Below are positions 4,441 through 57,447 of a stretch of 64,000 nucleotides of DNA, piece by piece. The notes beneath the pieces are model-generated. The model did no database searches. It had not been told where the DNA came from and was given only the letters and a program-made list of their open reading frames with translations. The DNA comes from Lachnospiraceae bacterium NK4A179 (GTDB lineage Bacteria > Bacillota > Clostridia > Lachnospirales > Lachnospiraceae), in assembly GCA_000421045.1 (NCBI GenBank), contig ATWC01000008.1, forward strand, positions 1 to 64,000, read 5' to 3'. The first letter of the stretch is position 1. Each line of letters begins with the position of its first letter. The translations under genes were made by a program, and so were the position numbers.

Positions 4441-5888
4441 AGATCAGAACAAGATTTGCGCCCAGTCCCACAGGAAGAATGCACGTCGGCAATTTGAGAA
4501 CGGCGCTTTATTCATACTTAATAGCAAAGCATGAAGGTGGAGATTTTATACTTCGTATAGAGGATACCGATCAGGAACGTGAGATGGAGGGTGCTGTTGA
4601 TATCATCAACAGGACACTTGAAGATACAGGCCTTAAACATGATGAAGGTCCCGATAAAGACGGCGGTGTGGGTCCTTATGTACAGAGTGAGAGACAGGCT
4701 GCAGGCCTTTATCTTGAGTATGCGAAAAAGCTCATAGATAAGGGTGAAGCATATTACTGCTTCTGTGACAAGGAGAGACTGGCTTCATTAAAAACAGCTA
4801 TTGGCGAAGATGGTAAAGAGATAACGGTATATGACAAGCACTGCCTGTCACTTTCAAAGGAAGAAGTGGAAGCAAATCTTGCCTCAGGCAAGCCTTATGT
4901 TATAAGACAGAACAATCCCAGGGAAGGTGTTACTTCCTTCCATGACGAAATATACGGAGATATCAGCGTTGACAATTCAGAGCTTGATGATATGATTCTC
5001 ATCAAGTCTGACGGATTCCCTACTTACAATTTTGCAAATGTAGTTGATGATCATCTGATGGGCATCACACATGTTGTAAGAGGAAATGAATATCTTAGCT
5101 CATCTCCCAAATACAACAGACTTTATGCGGCTTTTGGCTGGGAGCCTCCTATCTATGTTCATTGCCCGCTCATCACGGATGAGGAGCACAAGAAACTTTC
5201 AAAGAGAAGCGGACATTCATCATTCGAAGATCTGATCGAACAGGGCTTCCTTGCTGAGGCTGTTGTCAATTTTGTGGCGCTTCTTGGCTGGTCACCCGAG
5301 GATGACAGAGAGATATTTACTCTTTCAGAGCTTGTGGAAGCATTTGATTTCCACAGGATCAACAAGTCTCCTTCAGTATTCGATTTCTGCAAGCTCAAGT
5401 GGATGAACGGCGAGTATATCAAAGCGATGGATATGGATCGTTTCATGGAGCTTGCAGGCCCTTATCTTGAGAAGTATCTTAAGCCCGGACTCGATAAGGC
5501 AAAGATTGCTGCAATGGTAAAGACCAGGATAGAGATATTCCCTGACATTGAGGAGTTAGTTGATTTCTTCAATGAGCTTCCCGAGTATGATACTGAAATG
5601 TACTGCCATAAGAAGATGAAGACCGATAAAGAGAGTTCTCTTAAGGTTCTTAAGGAGCTGCTTCCAATTCTTGAGGCTCATGAGGATTATACCAATGATT
5701 CGCTTTATGCATTATTCCAGCAGTTTGCAGCTGACAATGGATATAAGAACGGCTACGTTTTATGGCCCGTACGTACAGCTCTTTCCGGTAAGCAGATGAC
5801 TCCTGCAGGTGCCACCGAGATAATGGAAGTGATCGGTAAAGAAGAGTCACTTGCAAGGATCAGAAAGGGTATTGAGCTTTTAGGATGA
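4437..5888 (+). CDS. gltX: Glutamate--tRNA ligase
   Basis: Class I aminoacyl-tRNA synthetase of 483 residues that charges tRNA-Glu, and often tRNA-Gln in Firmicutes that use the amidotransferase route. The HIGH-type motif appears as [11 protein letters not shown] near the N-terminus and the KMSKS-type motif as KKLSKRSG at about residue 250. The C-terminal anticodon-binding helical domain follows. The start is fixed by the ATGA overlap with lspA and the stop overlaps yitT by the same ATGA arrangement. Confidence 0.95.
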
Positions 5889-6754
5889 AAAAGTATTCAT
5901 GGGCAGAGATACGTTCAAATGCATTAGAGATGATCATGATATTCGCAGGGGCGGTCATTGCCGCCTTTGCGATAGAAGAGTTTTTAAGCCCTAATCGTAT
6001 CTTTGACGGCGGAGTGACAGGTATATCCATGATACTTGTTGCAAAGCTCCCGGTGAGCCTGTCCTTGTTTGTCATTCTTTTGAATATACCATTCTTTATC
6101 GTCGCATCTAAAAAGATAGGCAAAGTATTCCTGATCAAATCTTTGATCGCCATTGTCACATTTTCTGTTTCGATCGGATTGTTTGAGCATATGCAGCAGA
6201 TCACCAGGGACTCGCTGCTTGCAACCGTATTCGGCGGTGTTATGCTGGGTATTGGCGTGGGTCTGGTTCTTCGCGGCGGCGGCTGCCTTGACGGCACCGA
6301 GGTCGTGGGAATACTCATTAGCCGCAAAACTGCGTTTTCTGTAGGCCGCGTTGTGCTTCTTATAAATGTTGTAATATACTTTGCTGCAGGCCTTGTTTTC
6401 GGAATAGACAGCGGCATGTATTCCATGCTAATGTACTTTATCACTTCAAAAGTTATCGATATTGTAGAACGCGGTCTGGAGCAGGCCAAGGCTGTTATGA
6501 TAGTCACCGCCGAAGGTGAAGTGCTCGCGCAGGAAATATATGACAGGCTTGGACGCACGGCTACTCTCATGCCCGGCCGTGGCCTGGTTTCCGATAAGGA
6601 AATGGATGTGATATACTGCGTTGTAACCCGTGCGGAGATATCTGAAATCCGCGCTATTGTACGTTCTATGAAGGACAGTTCTTTCACAACTATCTCGGAT
6701 GTTTCCGAGATAATTGGCACTCATATCAAAAAAGTTCAGACTTCAGAGCAGTAA
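5885..6754 (+). CDS. YitT family membrane protein (DUF161 + DUF2179)
   Basis: A 289-residue integral membrane protein. The first 190 residues hold about five hydrophobic helices with the family motif [17 protein letters not shown] and a Gly-rich [13 protein letters not shown] segment. The C-terminal 90 residues form the soluble DUF2179 domain, beginning near KAVMIVT and ending with [14 protein letters not shown]. The family is widespread in Firmicutes and its transport substrate is not established. It is the last gene of the aroB-lspA-gltX-yitT chain, overlapping gltX by ATGA. Its stop directly abuts the palindromic element at 6755. Confidence 0.85.
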
Positions 6755-7028
6755 TTCCAATTTATTTACCGAAACTTCTGGCACCGCGTAGCCCTCTCTG
6801 ACGGTGGTACCGTTCGCCAAGCAGTTCTTACGAAAATGCCTGGGGTTTTTGCTTTTTCCGGAACCGCTCACACGCCACATCCGTGTGGCGTTGTTCGCAT
6901 CGGTCCGCCATCCGTGGCGGCCCGTTCCTGCTGTATCTATGCATTTTCGAGAACTGCTAAGGCTCACTTTAATACCGTCAGATAAGGCTGCGCGGCGTCG
7001 GAAGTTAGCTGTGTATAACTAGTTGGAA
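6755..7028 (+). repeat. 274-bp imperfect palindrome with two UCCG-loop hairpins (MITE-like or structured RNA)
   Basis: This fills the gap of just over 300 bp between yitT and the helicase gene. Ends are TTCCAA (6755-6760) and TTGGAA (7023-7028). Arm 6775-6805 pairs with 6974-7004 at 25 of 31 positions, and three of the six exceptions are G-T pairs on this strand. A second stem, 6820-6839 with 6941-6958, is perfect apart from a two-base bulge. GGAAC (6860-6864) pairs with GTTCC (6924-6928). At the tip are two perfect hairpins, ACGCCACA/TGTGGCGT (6872-6891) and CCGCCA/TGGCGG (6905-6920), both with a TCCG loop. The short frames crossing it show no protein features. It could be a non-autonomous transposable element, an extragenic palindrome family or a folded RNA. 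Confidence 0.75.
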
Positions 7029-7066
7029 GTTTTAGTTAGTTTAATCAATTCAGAAAGGCGAAGTTT

Positions 7067-8890
7067 ATGGGAGAAGATATTAATCCCGGACAGCGGCTTG
7101 CAATTGACCACCATGACGGTCCAATGATGGTCATTGCAGGCCCCGGTTCGGGTAAGACTTTTGTTATCACAAGACGTATTAAGAAACTTATTGAAAGCGG
7201 TATACCACCGGAAGAAATATTGGTGATCACTTTCACCAAAGCCGCGGCCCTCGGGATGCAGTCCCGCTTCAGGGAACTGATGAGCGATGAGGCATCCTCC
7301 GTTACATTCGGAACATTTCATGCGATCTATTATCACATCATTAAGCAGTCATACCATTTCGGTCAGGACAGCATAATAACAGCAAAAGAAAAGAAACAAT
7401 ATATGAAAATGGTGCTCTCGTCATATCCAAAAGTAGATGACGACGACAGTACGATACAGTATCTGCTTGCAGAGTTTTCCAGGATGAAAAATGAAGGTGG
7501 CTCTGTGAGGGAGCAGAAAACAACGGACAATCTAATAGAGCGTTCGGATTTTGAAGGCATATACAGAGAATATGAAGATATGTTAAGAGAGGCACGCAAA
7601 CTGGATTTTGATGATATGGTGCTTCTTTGCAGAGACTTATTCATAAGCCGTCCGGATGTGCTTGAGATCTGGAGAGACAGATTTAAATACATACTCATCG
7701 ATGAATTTCAGGATATCAATCCAATGCAGTATGAAGTCGTTAAGATGCTTGCAGCCCCGCTTAATAATCTTTTTATCGTAGGGGATGATGATCAGTCCAT
7801 ATATGGATTCAGAGGTTCCTGTCCCGGTATAATGCTTGGTTTTCCAAAAGAGTTTCCTGAATGTAAAAATGTTTGTCTTAAGAATAATTACAGATCTACC
7901 AAGGGGATCGTGGATGATGCCTGCAGGCTGATCGCTCACAACAAGAGCCGTTTTGATAAAAAGCTCGAGGCAGGAAAGTTTGGAACTGACGATGTGATAC
8001 ATCTGGAATTTGCAAATGCTGAGGAAGAAGCAAGGGCTGTGACCGAACTGGTCATGGGTGCAGCTGAACACATGAAGCTTAGTGAGACTGCTGTTATAGT
8101 CAGGACAAACAGATCGGTTTCGGAATATGCTTCCGTATTTGCAAAGAAGCGTATCCCTTTCAGGATGCGAGAAAAGACTGCGAGTATCTTTGCTTCGGAA
8201 ACTGCAAGGGATATACTTGCCGTCCTTGCTTTTGCAGAAGGCGACCACAGCAGGGAAAACTTCCTTCGTTTTATGAATAAGCCGGTCAGATATATAAGAC
8301 GTGCCGATCTGGGTGCAAGAGGCAGGGTCGAACTCTCTGCATTGTTATCAGATCCTTATCTGAAACCTTATGTAAAAAAGAATGTTAAGGCGCTTCAGTA
8401 CGACTTGTGCAGAATAGCAGGAATGCTGCCTCTGCAGGCAGTCAATTATTTCAGAAAAGCGATGGGGTATGAATCATATTGTGTAACGGAAGGCCGAAAG
8501 AGAGGCAAGCCAAGAGATGAAGTGTTAGCTGAGCTTGATACGATAATGCGTTCGGCTGCAGGTATGGAAAGCTTTAAACAATGGCTTGAAAACATAGAGG
8601 ATTATGAGGCAGAGCTTTCACATATCTCATCCGAAGAAGAGGATAAGGATGGTGTATGGCTGATCACGATGCATGCGTCAAAAGGCCTCGAATATAACAC
8701 AGTGATACTTCCGGATCTGATCGAAGGAAATGTACCTCAAAAGCAGGCGGGCAGCCCTGAAGAGATAGAGGAGGAACGAAGAGTTTTTTATGTCGCCATG
8801 ACAAGGGCAAAAGAAAAATTGATCCTTTGTTCCCTGAAAAAAGAGCCCGGATCAAAGATAACACCAAGTCGGTTTTTGAAAGAGTTTTAA
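7067..8890 (+). CDS. UvrD/PcrA-type ATP-dependent DNA helicase, short form
   Basis: Superfamily 1A helicase that unwinds DNA 3' to 5' in repair or replication restart. Motifs in order: Walker A AGPGSGKT, VITFTKAAA (Ia), Walker B DEFQDINPMQ, GDDDQSIYGFRG (III), NNYRST (IV), TMHASKGLEY (V) and VAMTRAKEKL (VI). With 607 residues it is shorter than typical UvrD/PcrA (over 700), and the missing part is in the C-terminal tail and the inserted 2B region. It has no visible extra nuclease domain. GAAAGGCG precedes the start. It stands alone between the palindromic element and a strong hairpin. Confidence 0.9.
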   Translation: MGEDINPGQRLAIDHHDGPMMVIAGPGSGKTFVITRRIKKLIESGIPPEEILVITFTKAAALGMQSRFRELMSDEASSVTFGTFHAIYYHIIKQSYHFGQDSIITAKEKKQYMKMVLSSYPKVDDDDSTIQYLLAEFSRMKNEGGSVREQKTTDNLIERSDFEGIYREYEDMLREARKLDFDDMVLLCRDLFISRPDVLEIWRDRFKYILIDEFQDINPMQYEVVKMLAAPLNNLFIVGDDDQSIYGFRGSCPGIMLGFPKEFPECKNVCLKNNYRSTKGIVDDACRLIAHNKSRFDKKLEAGKFGTDDVIHLEFANAEEEARAVTELVMGAAEHMKLSETAVIVRTNRSVSEYASVFAKKRIPFRMREKTASIFASETARDILAVLAFAEGDHSRENFLRFMNKPVRYIRRADLGARGRVELSALLSDPYLKPYVKKNVKALQYDLCRIAGMLPLQAVNYFRKAMGYESYCVTEGRKRGKPRDEVLAELDTIMRSAAGMESFKQWLENIEDYEAELSHISSEEEDKDGVWLITMHASKGLEYNTVILPDLIEGNVPQKQAGSPEEIEEERRVFYVAMTRAKEKLILCSLKKEPGSKITPSRFLKEF

Positions 8891-21568: not shown

Positions 21569-23266
21569 ATGGCATCAAGAAAAAAGAAAGCTGAAGCCAG
21601 AGAACTCACAGGCTCACAGATTGTTATAGAGTGTCTTAAAGAACAGGGTGTTGATACGGTTTTCGGTTATCCCGGAGGTTCCATCCTCAATATATATGAT
21701 GAGCTTTATAAGCATTCAGACGAGATAAGGCATATTCTTACAAGCCATGAGCAGGGCGCTGCTCATGCGGCTGACGGTTATGCAAGAGCAACCGGTAAAG
21801 TGGGCGTATGTATGGCTACTTCAGGCCCCGGTGCAACCAATCTGGTTACAGGCATAGCAACTGCATATATGGACAGTGTTCCTCTGGTTGCTATCACGGC
21901 AAACGTAACGCTTCCCTGGCTTGGCAAAGATACTTTCCAGGAAGTTGATATAGCCGGTATCACGATGCCTATCACAAAGCATGGAACCATCGTTAAGGAT
22001 GTTAAGGATCTGGCACCTACGATACGCAGGGCTTTTGCTATCGCAAAGAGCGGCAGACCGGGTCCTGTACTTGTAGATATAACAAAGGATGTGACTGCAG
22101 CAAAATGCATGTACACACCTGAAAAGCCTTATCTTCTCGATCAGCCCGTTCAGTATGACGAGAATGATATAAAGAAGGCTGTAGAACTTATCAAAGCATC
22201 AAAGAAGCCTCTTATCTATGTCGGAGGCGGTGCTGTCATCAGCGGTGCAAATAAGGAACTTGCCGAGTTTGCAAAGAAGGCTGATGCTCCCGTATGCGGT
22301 TCGCTTATGAGCAAAGGCTCATTTGATGAGACTGATGCCAGATATACCGGAATGATCGGTATGCATGGTTCAAAGACCACAAACAAGGCAGTATGTGAAT
22401 GTGACCTTCTTATTACATTAGGTGCAAGATTCTCTGACCGTGTAGTATCGGATCCCAAGATCTTTGCATCACAGGCAAAGATACTCCATATAGATATCGA
22501 TGCTGCCGAGATCAACAAGAATATAAAGGTGACTGCAGCGGTCATCGGTGATCTGAAGGAAGTGCTTTCCAAGATAAACAGCAAGGTCGGCACACTTAAT
22601 CATTCAGAATGGATGAAGCATATTAAACAGATGAAGGCGGAGATGCCGCTTTCATACGATAAGGATACGCTTACATGTCCGTATGTGATCGAAGAGCTCT
22701 ATAAGGCAACGAAGGGTGATGCGATCATCACCACGGATGTAGGACAGCATCAGATGTGGACCGCCGAGTATTATAAATATACAAAGCCGCGTACATTCCT
22801 TACTTCGGGCGGTTTAGGTACGATGGGTTACGGCCTTGGAGCATGCATAGGCGCCAAAGTCGGGGTACCGGATAAAACAGTTGTTAATATCGGCGGTGAC
22901 GGATGTTTCCGTATGAATATGAATGAGCTTGCAACTGCTTCAAGATATAATCTTCCGATCATCCAGATAATCATAAACAACAATGTTCTCGGAATGGTAA
23001 GACAGTGGCAGACTCTGTTCTATGGTGCCCGCTATTCACAGACGGTACTCGAGGACAAGGTTGATTACGTAAAACTTGCAGAGGCTCTCGGATGTGAGGC
23101 TGTGCGAGTTACAAAGAAGGAAGAGGTAATGCCTGCCCTTAAGAAGGCACTTAAAGCAAAGGGACCTTTTGTGATCGATTGTGTGATCGCCAAGGATGAC
23201 AAGGTATTCCCTATGGTGCCCGGCGGAAAGCCGCTTGATACGGCTTTTGATGCATCGGATATGTAA
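21569..23266 (+). CDS. ilvB: Acetolactate synthase, large (catalytic) subunit
   Basis: ThDP-dependent enzyme making acetolactate or acetohydroxybutyrate, the first common step of branched-chain synthesis. The 565-residue protein has the N-terminal DTVFGYPGGSILNIYDEL, the ThDP-activating Glu in SHEQGAAHAADGYARATGK, the central FAD/adenine-binding domain, and the C-terminal ThDP/Mg2+ motif GGDGCFRMNMNEL ending in NNNVLGMVRQW. A ribosome site (GGGGGAGA) lies within the end of ilvD. No regulatory ACT-domain subunit gene (ilvN/ilvH) follows; the next gene is serC behind its own promoter. Confidence 0.95.
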   Translation: MASRKKKAEARELTGSQIVIECLKEQGVDTVFGYPGGSILNIYDELYKHSDEIRHILTSHEQGAAHAADGYARATGKVGVCMATSGPGATNLVTGIATAYMDSVPLVAITANVTLPWLGKDTFQEVDIAGITMPITKHGTIVKDVKDLAPTIRRAFAIAKSGRPGPVLVDITKDVTAAKCMYTPEKPYLLDQPVQYDENDIKKAVELIKASKKPLIYVGGGAVISGANKELAEFAKKADAPVCGSLMSKGSFDETDARYTGMIGMHGSKTTNKAVCECDLLITLGARFSDRVVSDPKIFASQAKILHIDIDAAEINKNIKVTAAVIGDLKEVLSKINSKVGTLNHSEWMKHIKQMKAEMPLSYDKDTLTCPYVIEELYKATKGDAIITTDVGQHQMWTAEYYKYTKPRTFLTSGGLGTMGYGLGACIGAKVGVPDKTVVNIGGDGCFRMNMNELATASRYNLPIIQIIINNNVLGMVRQWQTLFYGARYSQTVLEDKVDYVKLAEALGCEAVRVTKKEEVMPALKKALKAKGPFVIDCVIAKDDKVFPMVPGGKPLDTAFDASDM

Positions 23267-23411
23267 CAGGACTGTGCAGAACGAAAGAATTATGGCGATT
23301 TCAGTATATTTTATTGGTTGTTTTTATATTGACTAGGAACCGCCCTAAGTTGTAAACTTGTATAAGTCTGACAAGATTTTTTGTACAATTTTTCATAAAT
23401 GCAATGCCTGC

Positions 23412-23440
23412 TTTAGTCTACGACAGACATTTCATATAAT
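23412..23440 (+). promoter_or_regulatory. Likely serC promoter
   Basis: TTTAGT (23412-23417), a 17-bp spacer and a perfect TATAAT (23435-23440), about 30 bases before the GTG. The 200-base gap upstream also holds palindromes ACTTGTATAAGT (23357-23368) and TTGTACAA (23381-23388) that could be operators. Confidence 0.55.
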
Positions 23441-23469
23441 AACAAGCTATCCACAAGGAGGAAAAAGAA

Positions 23470-24552
23470 GTGAGCAGAGTGTACAATTTCTCAGCAGGAC
23501 CTGCGGTTCTGCCGGAGGAAGTCTTAAAAGAGGCTGCAGATGAGATGATGGATTACCGCGGATGCGGTATGTCAGTAATGGAGATGAGCCACAGGTCAAA
23601 GGTTTATGATGAGATCATCAAGACCGCTGAGGCAGACTTCCGATCTCTGCTTGGAGTTCCTGATAATTATAAAGTGCTTTTCTTACAGGGAGGCGCACAT
23701 CTTCAGTTCGCAGCTATCCCTATGAATCTTATGAAGAATAAGGTTGCTGACTATATCGTTACAGGTCAGTGGGCTAAGAAGGCTTGGAAAGAAGCAAGTC
23801 TTTACGGTACAGCAAACAAGATCGCATCTTCAGAGGATAAGATGTTCTCATACATCCCTGACTGCTCCGATCTTCCTATATCTCCTGATGCAGATTACGT
23901 TTATATCTGCGAGAATAATACGATTTACGGAACAAAGTATAAGACTCTTCCCAACACAAAGGGCAAGACTCTCGTATCCGATGTTTCATCTTGCTTCCTT
24001 TCGGAGCCCATGGATGTTACAAAGTACGGCCTTATCTACGGCGGCGTACAGAAGAACATCGGACCTGCAGGTGTTGTTATCGTTGTGATCAGAGAAGACC
24101 TCATCACAGATGATGTTCTTCCCGGCACACCGACCATCATGAAGTATAAGACTCAGGCAGATGCTGATTCACTTTACAACACACCTCCCTGCTATGGTAT
24201 CTATATCTGTGGTAAGGTATTCAAGTGGATCCAGAAGATGGGCGGACTTGATGCAATGAAGCAGATCAACGAGGAGAAGGCTAAGGTCCTCTATGATTAT
24301 CTCGATGAGTCAAATATGTTCAAGGGAACAGTACGCAGAGAAGACAGATCTCTCATGAACGTTCCTTTCGTAACAGATTCAGAGGAGCTTAATGCTAAGT
24401 TCATCGCTGAGTCAAAGGCTGCCGGTTTCGAGAACCTTAAGGGTCACAGATCAGTAGGCGGTATGAGAGCTTCTATCTACAACGCTATGCCTATCGAAGG
24501 TGTTAAGGCTCTTGTAGACTTCATGAAGAAGTTTGAGATGGAAAATAAATAA
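23470..24552 (+). CDS. serC: Phosphoserine aminotransferase
   Basis: PLP enzyme that transfers the amino group of glutamate to 3-phosphohydroxypyruvate in serine synthesis. The 360-residue protein begins RVYNFSAGPAVLPEEVL, a SerC hallmark, has FLQGGAHLQFAAIPMNL, and the PLP-Lys region in YGGVQKNIGPAGV. The start codon is GTG, supported by AAGGAGG (23455-23461). It is followed 29 bases later by serA. Confidence 0.95.
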   Translation: MSRVYNFSAGPAVLPEEVLKEAADEMMDYRGCGMSVMEMSHRSKVYDEIIKTAEADFRSLLGVPDNYKVLFLQGGAHLQFAAIPMNLMKNKVADYIVTGQWAKKAWKEASLYGTANKIASSEDKMFSYIPDCSDLPISPDADYVYICENNTIYGTKYKTLPNTKGKTLVSDVSSCFLSEPMDVTKYGLIYGGVQKNIGPAGVVIVVIREDLITDDVLPGTPTIMKYKTQADADSLYNTPPCYGIYICGKVFKWIQKMGGLDAMKQINEEKAKVLYDYLDESNMFKGTVRREDRSLMNVPFVTDSEELNAKFIAESKAAGFENLKGHRSVGGMRASIYNAMPIEGVKALVDFMKKFEMENK

Positions 24553-49738: not shown

Positions 49739-50825
49739 ACAGATGCTGGAAGATTCTTTTAAAAATATCCATTCAGGGGATATCCTTGACGGAACCGTGA
49801 TCTCCGTTACACCGACTGAGATAGCTGTTAACATCGGGTACAAGTCCGACGGTATCGTAACAAAAAGCGAGTATTCAAACGATGCATCTATCGATCTTAC
49901 AGAGGCAGTAAAGGCCGGAGATACTATCACAGTTAAGGTTCTTAAGCTTAACGATGGTGATGGTCAGGTCGTTCTTTCTCACAAGAGGATCGCTTCAGAA
50001 AAGGTAAGCAAGGTTCTTGAGGATGCTTTCAATGAGCATACAGTTCTCAAGGCTAAGGTATCAGAGGTTGTTAAGGGTGGTCTTGTTGCTACAGTTGATG
50101 AGGTTCCCGTATTCATCCCTGCAAGCCTTGCTTCAGATACATTTACCAAGAATCTTAACGTATTCGCTGACAAGGAGATCGAGTTCTACATGAGCGAGTT
50201 CAATCCTTCAAAGCGCAGATATATCGGTGATTGCAAGACACTTCTTAAAGAGCGCAGAGATGCAGCTAAGGAAGATGCTCTTCAGAAGATCAAGGAAGGC
50301 GATGTTGTTGAAGGCGTTGTAAAGAACGTTACAAGCTTTGGTGCTTTCGTTGATATCGGAGGAATCGACGGACTTCTTCATATCTCAGAGATGAGCTGGG
50401 GTCGTATCGACTATCCTCAGAACGTTTACAAGAAAGGCGATACCGTTAAGGTTATCGTTAAGGAGATAAAGGGCGATAAGATCGCACTTTCAGCTAAGTT
50501 CGATGAGAACAACCCCTGGCTTGGTGCTGAGGAGAAGTTCCCTGTAGGAGCTGTTGTAAAGGGCAAGGTTGCCAGAATGACTGACTTCGGTGCATTCGTA
50601 CAGCTTTCTGAAGGTGTTGATGCACTTCTTCATGTATCACAGATCAGCCGCAAGCGTATCGAGAAGCCTTCTGATGCACTTTCAGTAGGTGATGAGATCG
50701 AGGCTAAGATCGTTGACGTTAATATTTCCGAGCATAAGATCTCTCTTTCAATGAAAGAGCTTATGGCTGAGGAAGATGAAGCTGAGGAAGTTCCTCAGGA
50801 AGGTGCGGATCAGGCGAATGAGTGA
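49719..50825 (+). CDS. S1 RNA-binding domain protein (RpsA-like)
   Basis: A 368-residue protein with four S1 repeats at about 16-84, 101-165, 188-256 and 273-342. The last two are the clearest (VVEGVVKNVTSFGAFVDIGG and AVVKGKVARMTDFGAFVQLS). The short acidic tail is followed directly by cheR. It resembles the Firmicute S1 homologue that supports translation, here with fewer repeats than the six of E. coli. TTGAGGAGG (49701-49709) sets the start at 49719, inside the end of ispH. Confidence 0.88.
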   Translation: MSEMTFEQMLEDSFKNIHSGDILDGTVISVTPTEIAVNIGYKSDGIVTKSEYSNDASIDLTEAVKAGDTITVKVLKLNDGDGQVVLSHKRIASEKVSKVLEDAFNEHTVLKAKVSEVVKGGLVATVDEVPVFIPASLASDTFTKNLNVFADKEIEFYMSEFNPSKRRYIGDCKTLLKERRDAAKEDALQKIKEGDVVEGVVKNVTSFGAFVDIGGIDGLLHISEMSWGRIDYPQNVYKKGDTVKVIVKEIKGDKIALSAKFDENNPWLGAEEKFPVGAVVKGKVARMTDFGAFVQLSEGVDALLHVSQISRKRIEKPSDALSVGDEIEAKIVDVNISEHKISLSMKELMAEEDEAEEVPQEGADQANE

Positions 50826-51603
50826 TGTCGGTACTGATTACGAATATCTGAAGAAAAAGATACTTGCGATCACCGGCGTTGACTTAAATGCATACAAAGA
50901 AAACCAGATGAAGCGCCGTCTGGATACACTTATCAGGAAGCACGGGTTCAAGGATTATGTTGAATACTGTGAATGCGTGCGGACTGATAAGGACATAAAG
51001 GAAGAATTTCTCGGATACATGACTATAAATGTATCCGAGTTTTATAGAAACCCCGATCAGTGGGAGTTCCTGGATAAGACAGTTATCCCGGAACTCATTA
51101 AAAGATTCGGAAAGAATCTGAAGATCTGGTCAGCTGCCTGTTCTACAGGCGATGAACCATATTCTCTGGTCATGGCGCTGTCACGGCATTTACCTCTTAA
51201 TATGATTAAGATCTATGCCACGGATATTGATAATCAGATCCTTGCGCAGGCAAAGAATGGAATATACTCAGACAAATCTATAAAAGGTGTTCCTGCGGAT
51301 CTTCTTGAAAAGTATTTTGAGAAGGTTGGTACATCATATAAGATCAAGGATGAGATCAAATCAAGGGTTGAGTTTAAACAGGCCAATCTTCTTGATAATA
51401 ACTATCCTAAGGGTTTTAATATGATAGTTTGCAGGAATGTGCTTATATATTTTACTGAAGAAGCCAAGGATAATGTTTTCAGACGTTTCCATGACTCACT
51501 TGTTCCAAACGGTGTGCTGTTTATAGGAAGCACTGAACAGATAGTCAATTACAGAGATCTGGATTATTCCAGAAAGAATTCTTTCTTCTATGAAAGAAAT
51601 TGA
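50818..51603 (+). CDS. cheR: CheR-type protein-glutamate O-methyltransferase
   Basis: A 261-residue SAM-dependent methyltransferase that methylates chemoreceptor glutamates. The N-terminal helical domain (about 5-75, MKRRLDTLIRKHGFKDYVEY) is followed by the methyltransferase core: FYRNPDQWEFL, WSAACSTGDEPYSLVMAL (SAM loop) and FNMIVCRNVLIYFTEEAKD. The start overlaps the S1 gene stop by eight bases. No other chemotaxis gene (cheA, cheB, receptors) is in the window, so the coupling with ispH and S1 is odd. A bidirectional terminator follows. Confidence 0.9.
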   Translation: MSDVGTDYEYLKKKILAITGVDLNAYKENQMKRRLDTLIRKHGFKDYVEYCECVRTDKDIKEEFLGYMTINVSEFYRNPDQWEFLDKTVIPELIKRFGKNLKIWSAACSTGDEPYSLVMALSRHLPLNMIKIYATDIDNQILAQAKNGIYSDKSIKGVPADLLEKYFEKVGTSYKIKDEIKSRVEFKQANLLDNNYPKGFNMIVCRNVLIYFTEEAKDNVFRRFHDSLVPNGVLFIGSTEQIVNYRDLDYSRKNSFFYERN

Positions 51604-52870: not shown

Positions 52871-52899
52871 TTCCAAAAATATTTTATATGTGTTATCAT
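52871..52899 (+). promoter_or_regulatory. Promoter of the degenerate GH25 gene (leaderless layout)
   Basis: TTCCAA (52871-52876), a 17-bp spacer and TATCAT (52894-52899), with TG at 52891-52892 making an extended -10. The expected start of transcription (about 52906) is within two bases of the ATG at 52908. Confidence 0.55.
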
Positions 52900-52907
52900 C
52901 CAATATT

Positions 52908-54065
52908 ATGAGATTAAATGATTATGATGATGACAATGATATAAATGATGACGAGATACGTTTCCGGAAGGAAGCTAAGGTAAGGAGTGTACGTACTACA
53001 GCTATGATAGTAAGCGTTTTTCTTCTTACAACACTTGCTATTATCTTTTTTGCGCAGGAGGGAGCAAAGACTCCTTTTAAACGCGGAAATAAACCTTCCG
53101 TATCTTCTCAGATGATCGAGTCCAAAGCTGCGGCTAAAAGCAGAAGTGAGGTGGATGAACTTGTCGGGCAGAGTACGCTGACGGCTGATGATCTTGATTT
53201 CTGGGATGATTATCCCGTAGAAAAACCTGAAGAAAAGGAAAAGCCGGCCGTTCCCACTGATGCGGCTCCGCTCCCGCAGGTAAAAGAGGATCCTGCTACT
53301 GACGGAAAGCACACTCTTATAAAGCACAAAGACGGTTCGGAAGAATGGGCAGAGATAAATCCTTATCTGCAAAAATGTCCCTATGAAGCAGCCGGTTTTG
53401 TATATCAGACTCCGTTTATGCGTTACTATGAAAATAACAAGAAAAAAAGCATGAACGGGGTTACGTTATCCAAAGAGGATGAGTATGTTGATTTTATACG
53501 TCTTAAGGATGCCGGAGTAGATTATGTCATGCTGAAACTCGGTCAGCGTGGCTATACGACAGGAACTATTTCGATGGATGAGGCTTTTCCCGATAATGCA
53601 AAAAGAGCGGCTGATGCCGGACTGAAAGTCGGTGTTTACTTTGTTTCGGCTGCAGTAAATACTGATGAAGCTTATGAAGAGGCAAATTTTGTTTTAAAGA
53701 CTCTAAGCGAGAACAGTGTTTCAGTGAACTTTCCGGTTGCTGTTTCCACGGAAAAGGAGGGCGGCGGCACAAGCAGGCTTGATGCAGTTGAAAAGATCCC
53801 CAGGACTAATGCAGCCATAACCTTTATGCGCGCCATTGAGGTGGCAGGGCTTTGCCCGGTTCTTTACGGAACGAAGGAAACTCTTATAAAAAAGTATTCA
53901 CTTGGTTCCATGACCGGCTATGAAATATGGCTTGATGAAGATGAAGACCTTCCTACATATCCGTATACTTTTTCGATGTGGGAATATGATGATGCGGGAA
54001 CTGTTGATGGCATCGCAGGCGGAGCAAGGATGAGCATCAGTTTTGAAGATTATTCGTTAAGATAA
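52908..54065 (+). CDS. Membrane-anchored GH25-like protein with altered active site
   Basis: A 385-residue protein. A short Asp-rich cytosolic tail precedes one membrane helix (about 30-50, AMIVSVFLLTTLAIIFFA). A Pro/Glu/Lys-rich linker follows, then a GH25 lysozyme-like barrel (about 180-380): AGVDYVMLKLGQRGY, NAKRAADAGLKVGVYFVSAAV and a FSMWEYDDAGTVDGIAGG ending. The GIDVS aspartate position is Thr186 (GVTLS) and the DxE pair reads VSTE (Ser280, Glu282), so lysozyme activity is doubtful. No ribosome site precedes the ATG. It may bind peptidoglycan. It overlaps the AP2 gene by 16 bases, convergently. Confidence 0.72.
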   Translation: MRLNDYDDDNDINDDEIRFRKEAKVRSVRTTAMIVSVFLLTTLAIIFFAQEGAKTPFKRGNKPSVSSQMIESKAAAKSRSEVDELVGQSTLTADDLDFWDDYPVEKPEEKEKPAVPTDAAPLPQVKEDPATDGKHTLIKHKDGSEEWAEINPYLQKCPYEAAGFVYQTPFMRYYENNKKKSMNGVTLSKEDEYVDFIRLKDAGVDYVMLKLGQRGYTTGTISMDEAFPDNAKRAADAGLKVGVYFVSAAVNTDEAYEEANFVLKTLSENSVSVNFPVAVSTEKEGGGTSRLDAVEKIPRTNAAITFMRAIEVAGLCPVLYGTKETLIKKYSLGSMTGYEIWLDEDEDLPTYPYTFSMWEYDDAGTVDGIAGGARMSISFEDYSLR

Positions 54066-54874
54066 ATTTCGGTACGGAAAAGCTTTTTTGATATTTTTAT
54101 GCTTTTGTAAAGCTCCTTATATGATCCTTCGTCCAGCTCGGCAATGTCATTTCTGAAGAAGTTCTTTTTCAGACCCAGAGCATTAAGTGTATCGGCGGCT
54201 TTGTTATATGCAACTGCAGCGGTCAGTTCGTCTTCGTAATCACCGACGATAAAATCTCCGTTTATATGTATTACTGTGCGGCAGAGATCCCTGCCGCCTT
54301 TTTTTATACGGCGAACTCCGGTAAAGCGGTTTATTATCTCCAGATTTGCTGAACGAAAATCAGTACGGTCACCGTTAATGAAACGGTAATCCCGTCCCTC
54401 AACGGCATAGTTCTTGATCCCTACACGGTTAAGTACATTAACCTGAAGACCGGTATCCGCGGCAAAATAATGCCCTCCGCGTTTCATGATCTTGTGGGAT
54501 GAGAAATAAAAGAAAAGATCAGAGTCAAATTTAAGGATCTCTCTGGAACTCATATAATACTCGATCATTTTCTTCCTGATGTATATGGGATTCGGAGAGT
54601 AAAGCTTATTGTCGCGTACATTTATGATAGTCACTCTCTTTTCAAAAGGGAGGACTTCATTGCGCTGGTGGTCGATTATGCTGATAGATGGGTCGTTTAG
54701 TAAAAGCTGTGCTTCCGTGTAGGCTTTATGAGCATCGGCCTCGGTTTCATAGCTCCCCAGGCTTATATGTTTCCCGAATTTTGTGAGTGAAGCGCGATAA
54801 TATACGGTACCGTCCTTTTTTACGGCTACGTATACACCGGGAAGAAGTTTCATTTTTTCTTTGGATATTTCCAT
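54050..54874 (-). CDS. AP2-HNH-like-AP2 protein, probable DNA-binding protein
   Basis: A 274-residue protein with two AP2/ERF-like domains. The first (about 12-57) has LPGVYVAVKKDG, YYRASLTKFGKHISLGSYET and EADAHKAY. The second (about 184-240) has FTGVRRIKKGGRD, INGDFIVGDYED and ELTAAVAYNKAADTL. Between them, DYRFINGDRTDFRSANLEI (162-180) matches the end of HNH homing endonucleases fused to AP2, but Phe165 and Phe173 replace the usual His and Asn, so nuclease activity is unlikely. The middle (about 80-130) is unrecognised. No intron, phage or transposase gene is nearby. It lacks a ribosome site, and a promoter abuts the ATG. Best reading: a domesticated homing-endonuclease relative acting as a regulator. 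Confidence 0.65.
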   Translation of the reverse strand: MEISKEKMKLLPGVYVAVKKDGTVYYRASLTKFGKHISLGSYETEADAHKAYTEAQLLLNDPSISIIDHQRNEVLPFEKRVTIINVRDNKLYSPNPIYIRKKMIEYYMSSREILKFDSDLFFYFSSHKIMKRGGHYFAADTGLQVNVLNRVGIKNYAVEGRDYRFINGDRTDFRSANLEIINRFTGVRRIKKGGRDLCRTVIHINGDFIVGDYEDELTAAVAYNKAADTLNALGLKKNFFRNDIAELDEGSYKELYKSIKISKKLFRTEIYLNE

Positions 54875-54880
54875 AAAAGA

Positions 54881-54889
54881 AGTATATCA
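54881..54889 (-). promoter_or_regulatory. Extended -10 abutting the AP2 gene start
   Basis: On the minus strand TGATATACT (54889-54881). The ATG at 54874 begins at the seventh base after the hexamer, where transcription itself should start. No Shine-Dalgarno sequence is present. Confidence 0.55.
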
Positions 54890-54984: not shown

Positions 54985-56514
54985 ATGAAAAATATCTTAT
55001 ACCACAGCACAAGAAACAATAATGACAAACTCAAGGCTTCTGAGGCCGTATTAAAGGGACTTGCCGATGACGGCGGATTATTTGTACCCGAAGAGCTTCC
55101 GAAGCTTGATATCAGCTTTGATGAACTTAAGAAGCTTGATTATAAAGGCGTTGCTTATGAAGTGATGAAGCTCTTCCTTACGGATTATACCGAAGAAGAA
55201 CTTAAATTCTGCATAGAGCATGCTTATGATTCAAAGTTTGACACTGAAGAGATCGCACCTCTCGTATATGCTGACGGTGCATATTATCTTGAACTGTTTC
55301 ATGGCAAGACTATAGCATTCAAGGATATGGCTCTTTCCATACTGCCTTATCTTATGACTACTGCTGCCCGTAAGAACGATCTTAAAGAGGAGATTGTTAT
55401 CCTTACAGCTACAAGCGGTGATACCGGAAAGGCTGCGCTTGCAGGTTTTGCAGATGTGCCCGGTACCAGGATCGCTGTGTTTTATCCCAAGAACGGTGTT
55501 TCTCCTGTTCAGGAAAAACAGATGGTTACGCAGAAGGGATCAAATGTAAAGGTTATAGGTATTACAGGTAACTTTGATGATGCCCAGACCGGCGTTAAGA
55601 AGATGTTCAATGATGCAGCATTAAAGGCAGAACTTAAGGAGAAAGGCTTTGTATTTTCATCAGCCAATTCCATCAATATAGGACGCCTTGTGCCGCAGGT
55701 TGTTTATTATGTATATGCTTATGTTACGCTTTTAAAGAACGGAAAGGTTACTCCGGAAGATTCGATCAATGTGACTGTTCCGACAGGAAACTTCGGAAAC
55801 ATTCTTGCAGCGTATTATGCCAAGAATCTTGGGGTTCCCATTGCAAAACTTATCTGCGCATCAAATACAAACCGTGTGCTTTATGATTTCTTTACAACGG
55901 GTACCTATGACAAGACTAAGGAGCTTAATCTTTCGGATGGAAAGTTTGATGCAGAAAGAAAGTTTACGCTGACCGGTTCTCCTTCAATGGATATACTTAT
56001 CTCAAGTAATCTGGAGAGACTCATATATCTTAGCTGCGGCTCTGATGATAAGAAAGACAGCTCGCTCATGAAGGATCTTAATGAGAAAGGCAGCTATACG
56101 CTTGATGATAATGCCAAGAGCTTCCTTAAGGATTTTGAATGCGGTTTTGCTGATGAGATAAAGACAGAAGACAAGATCAAGAAGCTTTATAAGGATACAG
56201 GCTATATCATTGATACACATACTGCGGTTGCTGCGGCTGTATATGATGATTACAAAGCCCGCACCAATGACGATACAGTTACGGTCATTGCATCAACAGC
56301 AAGTCCTTATAAGTTTGCGAAGACTGTTATGGGAGCTATTGATGATGCGAATAAATCAAAGGATGATTTTGCTCTGATCGATGAGCTTAACAGACTTTCG
56401 GGGGTAGACATCCCGCAGGCAATAGAAGATATAAGAAGTGCTGCTGTTCTTCATGATACAGTATGCGATAAAGAAGATATGGTTTCTGAAGTGAAGAAAT
56501 TCCTTAATATCTAA
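54985..56514 (+). CDS. thrC: Threonine synthase
   Basis: PLP enzyme that converts O-phosphohomoserine to threonine. The 509-residue protein begins NILYHSTRNNNDKLKASEAV, carries ADDGGLFVPEELP, the PLP-Lys motif HGKTIAFKDMALSILP (about residue 112) and the phosphate-binding TATSGDTGKAALAGF. VTVPTGNFGNILAAYYAK is the conserved C-half block. GGCGGAGAATG gives the ribosome site. Its length fits the long bacterial/fungal class. It stands alone with its own promoter; hom and thrB are not present. Confidence 0.95.
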   Translation: MKNILYHSTRNNNDKLKASEAVLKGLADDGGLFVPEELPKLDISFDELKKLDYKGVAYEVMKLFLTDYTEEELKFCIEHAYDSKFDTEEIAPLVYADGAYYLELFHGKTIAFKDMALSILPYLMTTAARKNDLKEEIVILTATSGDTGKAALAGFADVPGTRIAVFYPKNGVSPVQEKQMVTQKGSNVKVIGITGNFDDAQTGVKKMFNDAALKAELKEKGFVFSSANSINIGRLVPQVVYYVYAYVTLLKNGKVTPEDSINVTVPTGNFGNILAAYYAKNLGVPIAKLICASNTNRVLYDFFTTGTYDKTKELNLSDGKFDAERKFTLTGSPSMDILISSNLERLIYLSCGSDDKKDSSLMKDLNEKGSYTLDDNAKSFLKDFECGFADEIKTEDKIKKLYKDTGYIIDTHTAVAAAVYDDYKARTNDDTVTVIASTASPYKFAKTVMGAIDDANKSKDDFALIDELNRLSGVDIPQAIEDIRSAAVLHDTVCDKEDMVSEVKKFLNI

Positions 56515-56562: not shown

Positions 56563-57447
56563 ATGAAACACATCCTTATGGTTGATGATGTTACAACTAA
56601 TCTGAAAAGTGCTGCAGAGGTCCTGCAGCCTTTTTACCATCTGTCGATGGCCAAATCAGGCAAGCAGGCGCTTAACTTCCTAAAGAAGAACAGACCTGAT
56701 CTGATCCTTCTCGATATCATGATGCCGGAAATGGACGGCTATGATACCATGGAACAGATCAAGCTGAATCCGCGAACAGCCAACATACCTATCATTTTCC
56801 TTACTGCCGATACTGAGCAGGAGAGTGAGATAAGAGGTATGAAGATGGGGGCGATGGATTTCATCACAAAACCTTTTGAGGCAGAGGCGATGCTCGGCCG
56901 TATAGAAAAGGTTCTCCAGATGGAAGACATGCGTAAAAACATCTTAAGTTCCGCAAAGCGAGATCTTCTTACCGATCTTTGGAAGGCTGAGTATCTCGAA
57001 CCGGAGATCGACTCAAGACTCAAACATATCTCAGATACCGGTGCAACAATGCTTCTTATCGATTTTGATGATTTCAAGAGCTTTGCCGCAGGCGGAAGGA
57101 CTAACAATGCGGATGGCGTGATCATACGTTTCTGTGAGAGTTTAAGAAAGATAGTACCCGCCGATACTTTGCTGGGACGCATTGGTAAGGATCGCTTCCT
57201 GTTATTCATTCCTTACGGACTTAATGAAATAGAGCTCATGGGCTTATGTACAGATATAAGGGATGTTTCTCTAAGAGAGGCTAACAATGCTTCTTCTGCT
57301 GACACTACACTTACCGTTTCCATATCCATTGCTCTTGCTCCGCAGCATGGACTTGATTATGCATCGCTTACGGCAAAGTTAGATATGGCAATGTATTATA
57401 TTAAACAGACAGGCAAGGATCAGATACATATTTACAGAGGTGCCTGA
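56563..57447 (+). CDS. Response regulator with degenerate GGDEF domain
   Basis: A 294-residue REC-GGDEF protein. Receiver domain at about 3-120: MVDDVTTNLKS, the phospho-acceptor LLDIMMPEMDGY and TKPFEAEAML. The second domain (about 135-290) has the GGDEF fold, but the signature is GKDRF (in LLGRIGKDRFLLFIP), so cyclase activity is unlikely. It may bind GTP or cyclic di-GMP as an effector or act through dimerisation. It resembles the first REC-GGDEF protein (1249) closely in the receiver. GTGGAG lies upstream. It is followed 27 bases later by the M24 peptidase gene. Confidence 0.82.
   Translation: MKHILMVDDVTTNLKSAAEVLQPFYHLSMAKSGKQALNFLKKNRPDLILLDIMMPEMDGYDTMEQIKLNPRTANIPIIFLTADTEQESEIRGMKMGAMDFITKPFEAEAMLGRIEKVLQMEDMRKNILSSAKRDLLTDLWKAEYLEPEIDSRLKHISDTGATMLLIDFDDFKSFAAGGRTNNADGVIIRFCESLRKIVPADTLLGRIGKDRFLLFIPYGLNEIELMGLCTDIRDVSLREANNASSADTTLTVSISIALAPQHGLDYASLTAKLDMAMYYIKQTGKDQIHIYRGA

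Follow-up and report, generated by a model that had tools for sequence, protein, structure and literature searches.

A conserved AP2-HNH-AP2 protein with a degenerate nuclease centre is a candidate motility-associated regulator in Lachnospirales

Results

An AP2-HNH-AP2 gene beside thrC

The DNA analyzed here is a 64,000-nucleotide stretch (the window) of contig ATWC01000008.1 from Lachnospiraceae bacterium NK4A179. A reverse-strand open reading frame at 54050-54874, with its start ATG at 54874 and its stop codon at 54050-54052, encodes a protein in which two AP2 domains flank an HNH-endonuclease fold. The genome carries one copy of the gene. The features of the locus are as follows.

54050..54874, (-) strand: gene for the AP2-(putatively dead HNH)-AP2 protein, 274 aa plus stop codon, predicted pI 9.3
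54695..54841, (-) strand: first AP2 domain (residues 12-60), composed of three strands plus one helix (profiles, AlphaFold model)
54323..54691, (-) strand: middle segment with an HNH-endonuclease fold, residues 62-184 (Foldseek search with an AlphaFold model of just this segment)
54341..54391, (-) strand: relic HNH motif DYRFINGDRTDFRSANL, residues 162-178 (alignment, profile comparison)
54167..54325, (-) strand: second AP2 domain, residues 184-236 (AlphaFold model, profile comparisons, family alignment)
54053..54166, (-) strand: C-terminal helical tail, residues 237-274 (AlphaFold model)
54881..54889, (-) strand: extended -10 element TGATATACT, separated from the ATG by a 6-nt spacer (54875-54880)
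54985..56514, (+) strand: thrC, divergent neighbor (context)
52890..54065, (+) strand: gene for a membrane-anchored GH25-like protein, convergent, with a 16 bp overlap with the end of the AP2 gene (context)
50776..51603, (+) strand: cheR, for a chemotaxis methyltransferase, part of this gene block (context)
56563..57447, (+) strand: response regulator with a GGDEF domain, past thrC (context)

Two AP2 domains

The first-pass annotation of this DNA proposed two AP2 domains around an HNH-like stretch. In searches with the single protein, the AP2 and HNH_3 signals were present and both lay under the Pfam cut-offs: AP2 (PF00847) matched residues 32-55 weakly (E 0.005; 17.6 bits against a curated cut-off of 33.3), and HNH_3 matched residues 165-182 (E 0.025). 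An NCBIfam search with the single protein gave no match. Among 60 related genomes no match passed the PF00847 cut-off, and 13 of 36 family members matched this profile under it, with a best E of 1e-6. Because the proteins score under Pfam's AP2 cut-off, routine annotation overlooks the family. PHROG_99 ('HNH endonuclease') matched the single protein (E 7e-12) and all 36 members.

Profile and structure comparisons support both AP2 domains. The 36-member family profile matches the two AP2 domains of WRI1, a plant factor of solved structure (7wq5), with an E of 3e-7, and a profile-profile comparison with a phage-type HNH-AP2 protein recovered both copies with probabilities of 96.9 and 94.3. The AlphaFold model (mean pLDDT 91.9) has the three-strand-plus-helix AP2 pattern at residues 14-60 and 187-232, and the two copies have the three-stranded sheet on a C-terminal helix and the LG and AAxAY motifs of the PF00847 fold. 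When the whole model was searched with Foldseek, the top PDB matches were the AP2 factors WRI1 and TEM1, at weak E values of 0.01-0.09, and viral HNH/AP2 endonucleases were matched with E values down to 2e-11. A PDB sequence search also returned de novo designed TIM barrels, which were discarded because all of these matches come from one 25-residue stretch that is repeated in the designs. Residues K19, K20, R27, K35 and G40 are conserved in the first AP2 domain, and the AAxAYNKA helix of the second is almost invariant across the family. The family is basic, with a pI of about 8.6-9.6 (5th-95th percentile of 36 aligned members).

A degenerate HNH centre

Residues 62-184 were modelled alone, without either AP2 domain, so that the AP2 parts cannot carry an HNH match. 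The best viral matches to this model are HNH homing endonucleases (Foldseek E 1e-6 to 1e-4, TM 0.5-0.58), in agreement with the HNH-like stretch described earlier. A sequence-only profile comparison of the segment with two HNH-AP2 proteins aligned the correct motif, with a score inside the shuffled range. The catalytic positions were located by alignment with L181, a prophage-type relative from outside the order (genome G761), in which the intact motif reads VDHINLNRLDNRRSNL and the window protein has DYRFINGDRTDFRSANL. The longer alignment sets MHR...VDHINLNRLDNRRSNLRLAT in L181 against LNR...DYRFINGDRTDFRSANLEIIN in the window protein. The His of the motif is replaced by Phe165, the Asn by Phe173 and the Asp preceding the His by Arg164; the two Phe residues are those named by the first-pass annotation. 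The 'MHR' His is replaced by N149.

In a count across 174 non-identical members of the family, 168 have Phe at position 165 and three (L221, L227 and L228) have His there. Asn is never found at position 173, which is occupied by F, L, Y, M or W, and His is never found at position 149. Asp precedes the His position (164) in four members. The counts indicate a nuclease centre that is dead across the family, as had been proposed for the window protein. The three members with His (and no Asn) support the homology of the motif; they read HINGD there and lack the remainder of the HNH site, and their His may be a relic or a reversion. D162, N177 and Y106 are invariant and 30 positions are at least 97% identical, which argues for strong selection for something besides cutting.

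Distribution in Lachnospirales

Of 392 genomes of the order, 111 carry the family. They fall into 49 of 174 genera, and a sensitive family profile recovered the identical 111 genomes. Each positive genome has one copy; in two entries the gene is split. In the window's genus the gene was found in 33 of 35 genomes (32 of 34 sampled relatives and the window's own genome). In G001, the thrC contig stops at the expected position of the gene. Members share 33-61% identity and have conserved surroundings. Relatives are encoded at 545 or more genome loci, and the 80 matches listed come almost entirely from MAGs of Lachnospiraceae or Clostridiales and from named species, among them Parablautia muri and Anaerosporobacter faecicola. 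Outside the order, the class sample gave just three weak partial matches, two of which (L181 and L183) are ordinary HNH-AP2 proteins with an intact motif.

A plasmid search found no family members, and a search of 2.9 million viral contigs gave one match. Three 'Bacteriophage sp.' records match the family, and their phage origin is unverified. One of them, MT836856.1 (L265), was rejected as a phage copy: it carries thrC, citrate synthase and a CheX-like gene together with the family member, and thrC and citrate synthase mark it as a mislabelled bacterial contig. The family is therefore conserved, single-copy and chromosomal, and has no verified phage or plasmid copy. The suggestion that the gene lies away from phages and introns thus holds for its homologs, which are chromosomal genes with a degenerate motif and not prophage genes. 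One family member lies on a contig binned as Anaerolineaceae (L209, SHOH01000113.1), likely a mis-binned Lachnospiraceae contig. In family f2 (L064, L152-L163) the proteins have about 340-375 residues and an apparent third, C-terminal AP2 domain; their genes often have a transketolase gene as the divergent neighbor and a gene for an ATP-grasp protein as the convergent one.

Gene neighborhood

Outside the window's genus, neighborhoods were counted at 62 loci of other, non-f2 genera. A divergent neighbor is present at 57 of them. thrC is divergent at position -1 or -2 in 41 and lies within three genes in 47, and a SleB-like hydrolase gene is nearby in 27. In the window's genus the convergent GH25 gene adjoins the AP2 gene at 22 of 31 loci. 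Genes for chemotaxis are a recurrent feature of the surroundings: the window has cheR and the response regulator-GGDEF gene, and in other genera a CheY-like and CheX-like pair adjoins thrC and the AP2 gene. Among the loci examined, no flagellar operon contains the gene.

The homolog survey thus found thrC recurrently, but in other lineages the divergent neighbor is azlCD (with ilvC convergent), transketolase or parE-parC. In addition, thrC is retained in 20 of 22 genomes that lack the gene, and the thrC-sleB and thrC-leuD-leuC orders persist where the gene has been lost. The persistence of thrC and its gene order without the family suggests that the association is old synteny rather than dependence. 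The earlier idea that thrC or the GH25 gene is the specific target is thus not supported.

A predicted leaderless promoter

The promoter in the window reads TGATATACT-TCTTTT-ATG. In 23 of 31 members of the window's genus, a -10 box (at least five of the six positions of TATAAT) lies 5-7 nt, nearly always 6, before the ATG, and these members have no strong Shine-Dalgarno sequence. The same placement is seen for 17 of 308 other genes in these loci and for six of 57 in other genera, where ribosome-binding sites are usual for the AP2 genes. The placement of the box predicts that in the window's genus the AP2 transcript is leaderless, with a 5' end that coincides with or adjoins the A of the ATG. 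Leaderless-type promoters are thought to be rare in Firmicutes.

A by-eye comparison of the AP2 upstream regions found no conserved element beyond the promoters. The flgB operon promoter, located between codY and flgB, is conserved (about 17 genomes; L387-L403) and across genera reads CTTGTnTTTTTT...TATAAT, with a T-rich stretch after an atypical -35. Because G408, which is flagellated and lacks the gene, has the same promoter, no AP2-specific site was recognized before flgB, a result that counts neither for nor against control of this operon by the AP2 protein. Flagellin upstream regions were too mixed for a site comparison.

Association with flagella

A functional clue that is stronger than the neighborhood, and that the first-pass annotation did not include, is the near-perfect restriction of the family to flagellated genomes. 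FlhA, encoded by the single-copy export gate gene, is found in 110 of 111 family-positive and 127 of 281 family-negative genomes of the order (Fisher p 8e-29, without phylogenetic correction). The sole positive genome without it, G238, is a 75% complete MAG. We also compared 32 positive and 20 negative complete genomes from the taxonomic family of the window. Flagellin is present in all 32 positive and in five negative genomes of this panel. A link to sporulation was rejected, since SpoIVA shows the opposite trend (14 of 32 positive, 17 of 20 negative).

The gene and flagella are also lost together on independent branches. On a ThrC tree of 76 rows, a single gene tree, pairs joined by non-overlapping, well-supported paths differ in flagella and gene in the same direction in six cases and in opposite directions in none, which is modestly significant (p 0.031). 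With a first tree of 90 rows, built by a quicker method, three to four pairs had the same direction and none the opposite one, which is not significant (p 0.125). Joint loss of the gene and flagella occurred within genera g31 (G327, G335) and g58 (G365). On the ThrC tree, G137 is the non-flagellated relative closest to the window's genus; its version of the block has lost the AP2 gene, the GH25 gene and cheR and retains thrC and the exonuclease and S1 genes.

Flagellin is present throughout the window's genus (35 of 35 genomes), also in the two genomes that did not yield the gene. At least 12 genomes of the window's taxonomic family are flagellated and lack the gene, and it is also absent from several other flagellated families of the order, such as f5, f11 and f17. 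Therefore, the gene is unnecessary for flagella as such. It implies flagella and not the reverse, which fits a regulator or an accessory protein rather than a structural part, and its near confinement to flagellated species makes it a probable, undescribed regulator with a link to swimming.

In the window's own genome, fliM is apparently split by an inserted element (L366, about 5816-7808; G000:C21, about 21816-23808), in which integrase-like and zinc-type transposase-like ORFs were identified by eye. The strain may be freshly non-motile with its AP2 gene intact.

Discussion

Our study revealed the domain anatomy of the family, its lack of the catalytic residues, its single-copy inheritance, its restriction to flagellated genomes and its loss together with flagella. 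The explanation that we favor, with about even confidence, is that the family is a domesticated, nuclease-dead HNH/AP2 protein that serves as a motility-associated DNA-binding regulator, with DNA binding and targets that are putative. An HNH-AP2 protein of the homing-endonuclease type would have become a fixed chromosomal gene in Lachnospirales, and recruitment of such a relative to the chromosome, suggested earlier, agrees with the AP2 and HNH folds and the single-copy inheritance. The nuclease chemistry would have been lost and the HNH scaffold retained as a spacer between the two AP2 folds. The AP2 domains most likely bind a bipartite DNA site, and the genes under control may be those for the motile state, such as flagellar, chemotaxis or co-regulated envelope genes.

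The protein may instead be a structural, nucleoid-type DNA-binding protein or a DNA-bending accessory factor that merely tracks the motile lifestyle. We consider this unlikely, although the protein is basic, has two folds of the DNA-binding type, lacks a ligand or catalytic domain and has no fixed neighbor, and its AP2 domains are similar to the arm-binding domains of integrases. Architectural proteins are usually abundant and would not be expected to disappear along with one organelle, and the promoter in the window's genus suggests a special mode of expression.

Local control of the divergent neighbor, either thrC or a SleB/GH25 cell-wall hydrolase gene, appears quite improbable. A divergent gene and nearby thrC are common, and cell-wall hydrolase genes (SleB-like, 3D, GH25, YkuD) repeatedly adjoin the gene. 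However, thrC and its order with sleB or leuCD outlast the gene, azlC, transketolase or parE takes its place elsewhere, and such a role leaves the flagellar tie unexplained.

It is very improbable that the family is still an active nuclease, cutting or nicking DNA with a rebuilt catalytic site. The near-invariance of D162, N177, R174 and D172 in the motif and the three members with His165 could be read in this way, but the retained residues fit a purely structural role too. Moreover, Asn173 and His149 are missing from every member and the Asp before the His is rare, and signs of homing are absent, the gene being fixed at one copy per genome with no intron and no mobility. A decaying or selfish prophage or intron leftover without host function, for which an ancestry from phage-type HNH-AP2 proteins would speak, is hardly credible given the strong sequence conservation, the single copy over 49 sampled genera, the conserved promoter spacing and the bacterial nature of MT836856, the one 'phage' record with gene context.

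Three known systems come closest to the family. The phage and prophage HNH-AP2 homing endonucleases (PHROG_99, PHROG_953, Pfam HNH_3 and AP2) have been named IPA-HNH (PMC10448857). Like these, the family combines an HNH fold and an AP2 fold in one small protein and has the HNH-then-AP2 order in its C-terminal two thirds. It differs by an extra N-terminal AP2 domain (and in f2 also the third, C-terminal one), by the loss of the catalytic residues and by its fixed chromosomal copy in flagellated hosts of one order. WRINKLED1 (7wq5), a plant AP2/ERF factor of the two-AP2 type, shares the two AP2 domains that the family profile matches, whereas the family is bacterial, still has the HNH scaffold between its AP2 domains and has a putative regulatory function. 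Plant AP2 factors have been proposed to originate from HNH-AP2 proteins (Magnani 2004, as cited in PMC10448857). If the family is a regulator, its recruitment is separate from that of the plant AP2/ERF factors. CapR, as outlined in PMC10448857, is a phage-satellite repressor built from the DNA-binding domain of a homing endonuclease, and is a precedent for such a conversion; its source is the T5orf172 endonucleases and it works for phage satellites, whereas the family is AP2-HNH and chromosomal. The use of homing-endonuclease parts as regulators is thus already known, and what is surprising here is the tie to flagella.

AP2 factors are regulators in plants and apicomplexans, with a presumed descent from homing endonucleases of bacteria. 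We are aware of no report of a bacterial lineage with AP2 factors as its own regulators. In the papers searched, we found no description of the family, in line with the first-pass suggestion that it is undescribed, and none of a bacterial lineage with a native AP2-type regulator; a search for annotated AP2 proteins in Lachnospiraceae also found none. A fuller account, which we hold tentatively and at somewhat less than even confidence, is that the whole order, in a step separate from that in plants, converted an HNH-AP2 homing endonuclease to a dedicated AP2-type transcription regulator of motility, with a dead nuclease fold as the spacer between two heads that read DNA and, at the level of the genus, a leaderless mRNA.

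The hosts of the family, with one copy each, number in the hundreds and are Lachnospiraceae and their relatives from gut and rumen. Lachnospiraceae flagellins are major gut antigens. Little is known about how these bacteria control motility, and the family is a candidate for this control; if our explanation is correct, it would be a free-standing bacterial AP2 regulator that is testable in cultured gut species.
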